From: Acidimicrobiia bacterium
GTDB lineage: Bacteria > Actinomycetota > Acidimicrobiia > Spongiisociales > ZC4RG35
Reading direction: 5' to 3'
NCBI GenBank assembly: GCA_025922945.1
Contig: JAICGW010000018.1
Coordinates: forward strand, 1-32,793
DNA: 32,793 nucleotides
In this document: positions 26,482 to 27,373 of the stretch, in pieces
How the letters are laid out: the number at the start of each line of letters is the position of its first letter
Position numbering within the stretch: the stretch's first letter is position 1
Notes under the pieces: generated by a model
The model's database searches: none
What the model was told of the DNA's origin: nothing
Seen by the model: the letters and a program-made list of their open reading frames with translations, nothing else
Made by a program: the position numbers and the translations under genes

Positions 26482-26485
26482 CGGG

Positions 26486-26491
26486 TACAAT
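26486..26491 (+). promoter_or_regulatory. Possible -10 element upstream of the CarD-like gene
   Basis: TACAAT lies 5 bp after the disA stop and 9 bp before the TTG 26501, inside a 19-bp gap. TTGGGA (26460-26465) is the nearest -35-like word, at a rather long 20-bp spacing. If used, the transcript would have almost no leader. No ribosome-binding site is seen before the TTG. Confidence 0.4.
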
Positions 26492-26500
26492 GCCGGTCCC

Positions 26501-27373
26501 TTGGCTGCAAAGAAAATCAATCGCTCGGTAAAGCGCTCGGCCGCCCCGGCCAAGAAGGCTTCTGCCAGGAAATCTGCCGCTAGCAGCAGCGCCGCCAAGA
26601 AGGCACCGGCCAAGAAGGCTGCCGCGACCCGGACGGCGAAGGCTGTGGCCAAGAAAGCTCCTGTTAAGCGGACCGCCGCCAAGAAAGCGTCGGTCAGTAA
26701 GGCTCCGGCCAAAAAGGCCACCTCCGCCAAGGCGCCCGCCAAGAAGGTGCCGGCCAAAAAGGTGCCGGCCAAAAAGGCAGCAGCTCCCGCCAAGGCTCCG
26801 GCGAAGAAAGCCGAAAGAGCTCCGGAGGAAACCAAACCGCCCGAACCCAAGAAGGGTCCCGCCACCTCGCGCTACAGCGTCGGCGACAAGGTGGTCCATC
26901 CCCAGCATGGTGCCGCCACCATCGCCAAGCGGGTCAAGCAATCTTTCGACGGACAGTCTCGCGAGTACTACGTGCTCGACATCTCAACCGAGTCGCTGAC
27001 GGTGATGATCCCAGTCGACAGGGTCGATTCCGTCGTGAGATCGGTCATCTCCAAGACCGCCTCCAAGAACGTCCTCGCCTCTCTCAAGGGCGAGCCCCAG
27101 GAGGCCGGCGCCAACTGGAGTCGCTGGTACAAGGTCCTCACCGAGAAGATGTATTCAGGCGACATCTTTCAGGTGGCGGAGGTGGTTAGAGACCTCTCGT
27201 TCTCCCAGCAAACCAAGGGGATTTCGCCGGCCCTGAAGCGGATGCTCTCGAAAGCACGTATGACTTTGATCTCGGAGCTTTCATTCTCCCTCGAAGTCGA
27301 CGAGGAGGAAGCAACCAATCGCCTCGATCGGGCCTTGCCCAAGGTCGAGGGCGCTCTCGTTCCCATCGTCTGA
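26501..27373 (+). CDS. carD: CarD-family RNA polymerase-binding regulator with a histone-H1-like N-terminal tail
   Basis: The C-terminal part (about 124-285 of 290) is a complete CarD. A Tudor-like RNAP-interacting domain runs from RYSVGDKVVHPQHGAA. The helical DNA-binding domain contains the conserved Trp in ANWSRWYK, GDIFQVAEVVRDL and KRMLSKARMTLISEL. CarD stabilises the open promoter complex. The N-terminal 123 residues are almost only Lys, Ala, Pro, Ser and Thr, with repeated PAKKA, AAKKA and VPAKK units. They resemble histone H1 C-tails or HupB tails and should be disordered and bind DNA non-specifically. TTG 26501 is the only in-frame start near the tail; upstream lies disA. Mycobacterial CarD lacks such a tail. 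Confidence 0.9.
   Translation: MAAKKINRSVKRSAAPAKKASARKSAASSSAAKKAPAKKAAATRTAKAVAKKAPVKRTAAKKASVSKAPAKKATSAKAPAKKVPAKKVPAKKAAAPAKAPAKKAERAPEETKPPEPKKGPATSRYSVGDKVVHPQHGAATIAKRVKQSFDGQSREYYVLDISTESLTVMIPVDRVDSVVRSVISKTASKNVLASLKGEPQEAGANWSRWYKVLTEKMYSGDIFQVAEVVRDLSFSQQTKGISPALKRMLSKARMTLISELSFSLEVDEEEATNRLDRALPKVEGALVPIV
26744..26773 (+). repeat. Perfect 15-bp tandem duplication in the CarD tail
   Basis: Two exact in-frame copies of a 15-bp unit (AAGGTGCCGGCCAAA) encode KVPAK units. They lie inside a wider, degenerate array of PAKKA codons (about 26575-26820). Exact identity suggests recent slippage, so tail length may vary between strains. Confidence 0.75.

Follow-up and report, generated by a model that had tools for sequence, protein, structure and literature searches.

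The window, by which we mean the whole stretch of 32,793 nt analyzed here, comes from an uncultured actinobacterial order of the class Acidimicrobiia and contains a carD gene (26501–27373, + strand) whose TTG-initiated product of 290 aa begins with a long lysine-rich extension resembling histone H1. Is this extension a genuine part of a CarD protein, how widely is it shared, and what might it do? Residues 1–122 constitute the tail and residues 125–278 a complete pair of RID and CarD_C domains. The Tudor-like RNA polymerase (RNAP) interaction domain (CarD_TRCF_RID, PF02559; 26873–27049, + strand, residues 125–183) is matched by Pfam with 52.3 bits for a cut-off of 23, and the C-terminal DNA-contacting helical domain (CarD_C, PF21095; 27071–27328, + strand, residues 191–276) with 89.6 bits for a cut-off of 23.1. 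Only 14 residues follow the end of the CarD_C match. This second domain holds the Trp wedge, W206 in the motif NWSRWYK, which is invariant across 57 sequences. A phmmer search matched Mycobacterium tuberculosis CarD over residues 125–279 (5.7e-29). In the AlphaFold model, the CarD domain has pLDDT values of 91–97 (92–97 over the RID) with the RID strands within residues 130–171, and the top Foldseek matches are the CarD structures 8hvr, 6edt, and 4kbm, all from RNAP complexes (8hvr_H: E 9.1e-13, target TM 0.86; 6edt_M: target TM 0.85). Q147 and M169 align with R25 and R47 of M. tuberculosis CarD, which we take to be RNAP contacts, so that details of docking may differ; both positions may vary in the CarD family. 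Mycobacterial CarD (6edt, 4kbm; PMC4593161, PMC4288152) shows about 40% identity in the domain, the same RID and CTD fold, and the Trp wedge but, unlike the window protein, has no tail. Judged by sequence and predicted fold, the protein is a genuine member of the CarD/CdnL family, with the RID, the helical CTD, and the fold of solved CarD proteins. The gene is accordingly predicted, from its family, to encode a CarD/CdnL-type initiation factor that would bind RNAP beta and stabilize the open complex.

The tail (26501–26866, + strand) is made up of 33% alanine, 26% lysine, and 11% proline, with a net charge of +34 and a pentapeptide periodicity whose lag 5 value was reached in none of 1,000 shuffles. 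Lysine accounts for a fraction of 0.84 of its lysine plus arginine residues versus 0.28 in the 11 other open reading frames (ORFs) of the window, so that the tail lysines run counter to the GC-rich codon bias. A frame or composition artifact was rejected as the source of the tail, as the other frames of the same DNA are devoid of such a composition. The histone H1-like HC2 family (PF07382) scores 28.4 bits, under its cut-off of 40, and the resemblance of the tail sequence to HC2 is a compositional one. A Pfam search of the protein gave no match to the HU domain (PF00216). AlphaFold models residues 1–120 without any secondary structure, and pLDDT drops to 50–60 over residues 1–110. The original prediction of a complete CarD domain preceded by an H1-like Lys/Ala/Pro tail is thus borne out by both Pfam matches and by the composition and charge of the tail. 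It had also pointed to a perfect 15-bp duplication. A tandem perfect repeat of period 15 is present (26744–26777, + strand), with a 19-nt perfect run at 26744–26762 recurring at 26759–26777, and a further 15-nt copy lies at a distance of 60. A run of 19 nt is also attained by 19 of 200 synonymous-codon shuffles of the tail; the duplication is therefore real but ordinary for DNA encoding a repeated peptide.

The TTG (26501–26503, + strand) aligns with an ATG in a member of the same genus (G009, locus L004; named record JACCTH010000001.1, Acidimicrobiia bacterium MGR_bin69, L033), at a nearly equal distance from the −10 element, and 5 of the 69 complete tailed carD genes likewise start with TTG. 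As TTG is a weak start codon and three GTG codons lie inside the window tail, one might argue that the start was miscalled and that translation begins past the tail. Yet the last of these GTG codons leaves 33 tail residues, the next in-frame GTG falls inside the RID and would cut it, and the window gene has no in-frame ATG, GTG, or TTG between the end of the tail and the CarD domain. Moreover, internal start codons are absent from 31 of the 69 complete tails of relatives, over up to 187 codons. A start past the tail is contradicted by this survey and can be given practically no credit. The objection that a downstream start would do away with the tail fails on the same grounds, and the TTG proposed at the outset is retained. 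Since relatives include an aligned ATG and so many start-free tails, and no start precedes the domain, the sequences imply that the tail must be translated.

The original prediction had further proposed a near-leaderless promoter, and comparison of relatives supports it. A −10-like TACAAT (26485–26490, + strand) lies within the 19 bp that separate the disA stop codon from carD, 10 nt (26491–26500) before the TTG. A generic scan for sigma-70 promoters recognized no complete one upstream of the window gene. Among carD genes of the same family, however, 28 of 29 have a TANNNT hexamer (TACACT or TACAAT in most) that ends 8–12 nt ahead of the start, versus a mean of 1.7 and a maximum of 6 in 500 shuffles. 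Control windows 15–44 nt upstream of these genes gave 0, 0, and 2 such hexamers, and no Shine–Dalgarno-like motif was found upstream of any of the 29. Across the order (L120–L203), carD genes outside this family mostly have the −10-like hexamer 25–34 nt upstream (34/65), and 12 of the 65 have a Shine–Dalgarno-like motif. On the basis of this displaced hexamer, a near-leaderless carD mRNA, with a predicted leader of a few nucleotides, appears to be a trait of the family of the window, within which a switch to this organization would have taken place.

To determine how widely the tail is shared, the carD 5′ region was examined in essentially every member of the order with a match; a gene was scored as tailed when its tail was at least 40 aa long or ran off the contig end. 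Tailed CarD was found in 92 of 118 scorable genes, from 41 of 57 genera, with tail lengths ranging from about 40 to 296 aa. All scorable genes are tailed in families f3, f4, f6, f7, and f8, as are 13 of 15 in f5 and 11 of 29 in f1 (the family of the window). None of the 6 f2 genes is tailed, four of them retaining a stub adding about 14 residues. In records named Actinomarina, there is a stub 6–8 residues long (e.g., MATKTKK). One carD gene (L204, genome G001) looks frame-broken, with a tail-less start and a stop after 97 domain residues, perhaps owing to an assembly error. No tailed CarD was observed in the other orders sampled within the class, nor in 20 records drawn from another 19 genomes within the class and phylum; one of these records (L288) carries a basic stub some 30 aa long. 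We rejected the idea of phylum-wide tails, several alignments that appeared to extend into the tail having proved to be fortuitous matches to GC-rich sequence upstream or to run through stop codons. The proposed alignment of orthologues thus uncovered relatives with and without tails, and on this sequence survey tailed CarD is a trait of the order rather than of one gene.

A tree was built by a quick search from the CarD domain alone, excluding the tail columns, and has many open forks. It required 7 changes of tail state, versus 33.7 with shuffled labels, the exact number being soft. All outgroups lack the tail, which most lineages of the order possess. A starred clade uniting the window with G009 and G014 is tailed, and the family around it also holds a tail-less clade of 15 rows. 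This 15-row clade and genera g6 and g28 do without the tail, from which it follows that the tail is not essential to CarD function. The simplest reading of these sequences is one early gain followed by several losses, bearing in mind that parsimony cannot tell gains from losses.

Such a history could also be that of a slippage-prone repeat array which a free N-terminus tolerates, which owes its lasting basic character mainly to repeat copying, and which is itself devoid of function. The wide range of lengths, the repeated losses, and the rapid turnover would fit this nearly neutral expansion, as would the exchanges of tails described below and the few pairs in which dN/dS is about 1 in the tail (L169/L184, and about 1.1 in the close pair L160/L161). 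The composition and its conservation argue otherwise. Over 86 tails (median length 99.5, net charge per residue +0.30), lysine represents 30%, alanine 28.5%, and proline 12.6% of the residues, acidic residues are few, and only 3 aromatics occur among 8,570 residues. Lysine is preferred to arginine despite the GC bias, with a K/(K+R) of 0.93 compared with 0.56 in the CarD domain. In addition, all but one of the eight families of the order have kept the tail, and dN/dS is below 1 in nearly all alignable pairs, mostly 0.1–0.6 for the tail against 0.02–0.1 for the domain. These values suggest that the tail is under weak purifying selection, constrained but loosely. Together with the composition, they indicate that charge and residue content persist despite turnover of sequence and length, and we consider a functionless expansion improbable.

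The tails of family f5 and of genus g3 are partly different and richer in arginine, and many f5 tails open with an acidic or neutral stretch, recalling the acidic-plus-basic layout of Myxococcus CarD. In genus g29, L182 and L184 have identical CarD-domain DNA and quite different tails, and L175 and L182 have nearly identical tails and different CarD domains. Judging from these mosaics, the g29 tails seem to have been swapped by recombination.

The genome of the window (2.56 Mb, 179 contigs, 94.6% complete) encodes a single CarD. Its one other PF02559 match lies in a 1,158-aa open frame of the kind expected for Mfd. carD is preceded by disA and followed by ispF, cysS, and a SpoU methylase gene; carG is absent from among these neighbors. 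In genus g6, ispF (L018:1995–2801, + strand, 268 aa) encodes a YgbB domain (176.5 bits) that seems to be followed at the C-terminus by a degenerate copy of the CarD C-terminal domain (CarD_C, 17.3 bits, under the cut-off of 23.1), and the same pattern is suggested in G012 and G016. This apparent IspF–CarD_C fusion next to carD looks like a local duplication. Other lysine-rich proteins are encoded elsewhere in the window genome. Contig C5 carries the gene for a free 69-aa H1-like protein (MATKKAPARKKAAAKKAPAKK..., L250:1504–1713, − strand), a possible small nucleoid protein candidate. An HBHA-like protein of 177 aa with a lysine-rich C-terminal tail is encoded on contig C16 (L252:1132–1665, + strand), and TopA has a short lysine tail. 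The HU protein, of 96 aa, is tail-less, and no basic N-terminal tail was found on the primary sigma factor ORF beside dnaG (L254); we therefore rejected HU and this sigma factor as donors of the tail.

These observations bear on whether tailed CarD might act as a nucleoid protein, spreading over the chromosome beyond promoters and condensing or organizing DNA in the manner of HupB while HU itself is tail-less. HupB, an actinobacterial HU with a PAKK/KAAK tail, resembles the window CarD in tail composition and repeat type, and requires its PAKK tail for nucleoid binding (PMC5676037). Its tail is C-terminal and borne by HU, whereas none of the HUs of the order whose end was read has a tail. In six genomes of genus g3 (G002–G007, 94–96% complete), no HU (PF00216) match was found, and the divergent CarD carries an Arg/Lys-rich tail of 46–63 aa. 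Nevertheless, tail-less HU also co-occurs with tail-less CarD in the same family, the HUs read in other orders are mostly tail-less too, and the H1-like, HBHA-like, and lysine-tailed TopA proteins are other candidates for such a role in the window genome. A clean trade-off between HU and CarD tails across the class was rejected, since tailed HUs occur sporadically in other orders (L265, L267, L283) and the HUs read are mostly tail-less everywhere. A role as a general nucleoid protein thus appears rather unlikely. It would likewise be a long shot to regard CarD as both an initiation factor and a protein of chromatin type, with an H1-like tail that would tie RNAP to the packaged nucleoid at virtually every promoter and would partly replace the tailed HU of other Actinobacteria, most clearly in g3, given the lack of an HU match there.

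The closest precedents come from myxobacteria. According to PMC9304148, which cites Garcia-Heras et al. (2009, PNAS), CarD-Ad of Anaeromyxobacter dehalogenans and CarD-Vi, from two myxobacteria, carry an H1-like K/A/P-rich tail at their C-terminus, a precedent that the original prediction had passed over. They resemble the window CarD in combining an RNAP-interacting module with an AT-hook-free K/A/P-rich disordered region, but the window tail is N-terminal and belongs to an actinobacterial lineage. CarD of Myxococcus xanthus also shares a disordered basic tail on a CarD module; there it is C-terminal and comprises an acidic segment and RGRP AT-hooks, whereas RGRP was found in none of the 69 complete tails of the order and GRP in two. 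Myxococcus CarD owes both its capacity to bind DNA by itself and its maximal activity to the basic disordered C-terminal domain; without the HMGA domain activity is low, and CarD remains functional when this domain is swapped for human H1, its C-terminal region, or a different disordered basic domain (PMC4374960, PMC8156234). By itself, CdnL, which has no tail, reportedly does not bind DNA (PMC8156234). Myxobacterial CarD works with CarG in Cystobacterineae, alongside a separate tail-less essential CdnL, whereas the window CarD is the only CarD/CdnL of the cell. Actinobacterial TopA offers a comparable case, its H1-like lysine repeats stabilizing the complex with DNA (PMC7398561), although the repeats that hold it on DNA are C-terminal and on a topoisomerase.

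By analogy, the disordered N-terminal polycation probably anchors CarD to promoter-flanking DNA, as the HMGA/H1-like C-terminal tail does in myxobacteria. The lysine-rich tail would grip DNA flanking promoters and hold CarD and RNAP there, raising their local concentration and residence time, and this longer residence would lead to stronger stabilization of the open complex. The tail would act like the C-terminal domain of myxobacterial CarD or the TopA lysine repeats, except that it is attached to the other end of CarD. SMT3–CarD fusion chains are present in the RNAP entries 9e7v and 9e84–88, among them the initiation complex 9e87, so that an extension at the N-terminus need not prevent docking. 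Many polyanions are potential ligands of lysine-rich low-complexity tails, and the target might instead be RNA, polyphosphate, or ribosomes, or the tail might serve as a switch based on lysine modification, DNA not being the main partner. The H1-like AlgP, for instance, works on polyphosphate granules (PMC9239181). On a promoter-bound factor, though, DNA is the nearest polyanion, and no specific evidence for another target was found; such alternatives are very unlikely. The DNA condensation and the lysine acetylation or methylation envisaged by the original prediction likewise find no support in these sequences. We thus favor anchoring of CarD to DNA around promoters.

The association of CarD with an H1-like tail was already known as an idea. 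What distinguishes the Acidimicrobiia form is the N-terminal position, its occurrence on the only CarD/CdnL of the cell, and its presence in another phylum. We found no paper on CarD tails in Acidimicrobiia, in a search of mainly openly accessible literature. This architecture has arisen a second time, apparently through an independent event, with the tail at the other end of the protein and on the sole CarD of the cell. Because close relatives carry the same CarD with and without the tail, the order would provide a natural test of the contribution of a basic disordered tail to open-complex stabilization.
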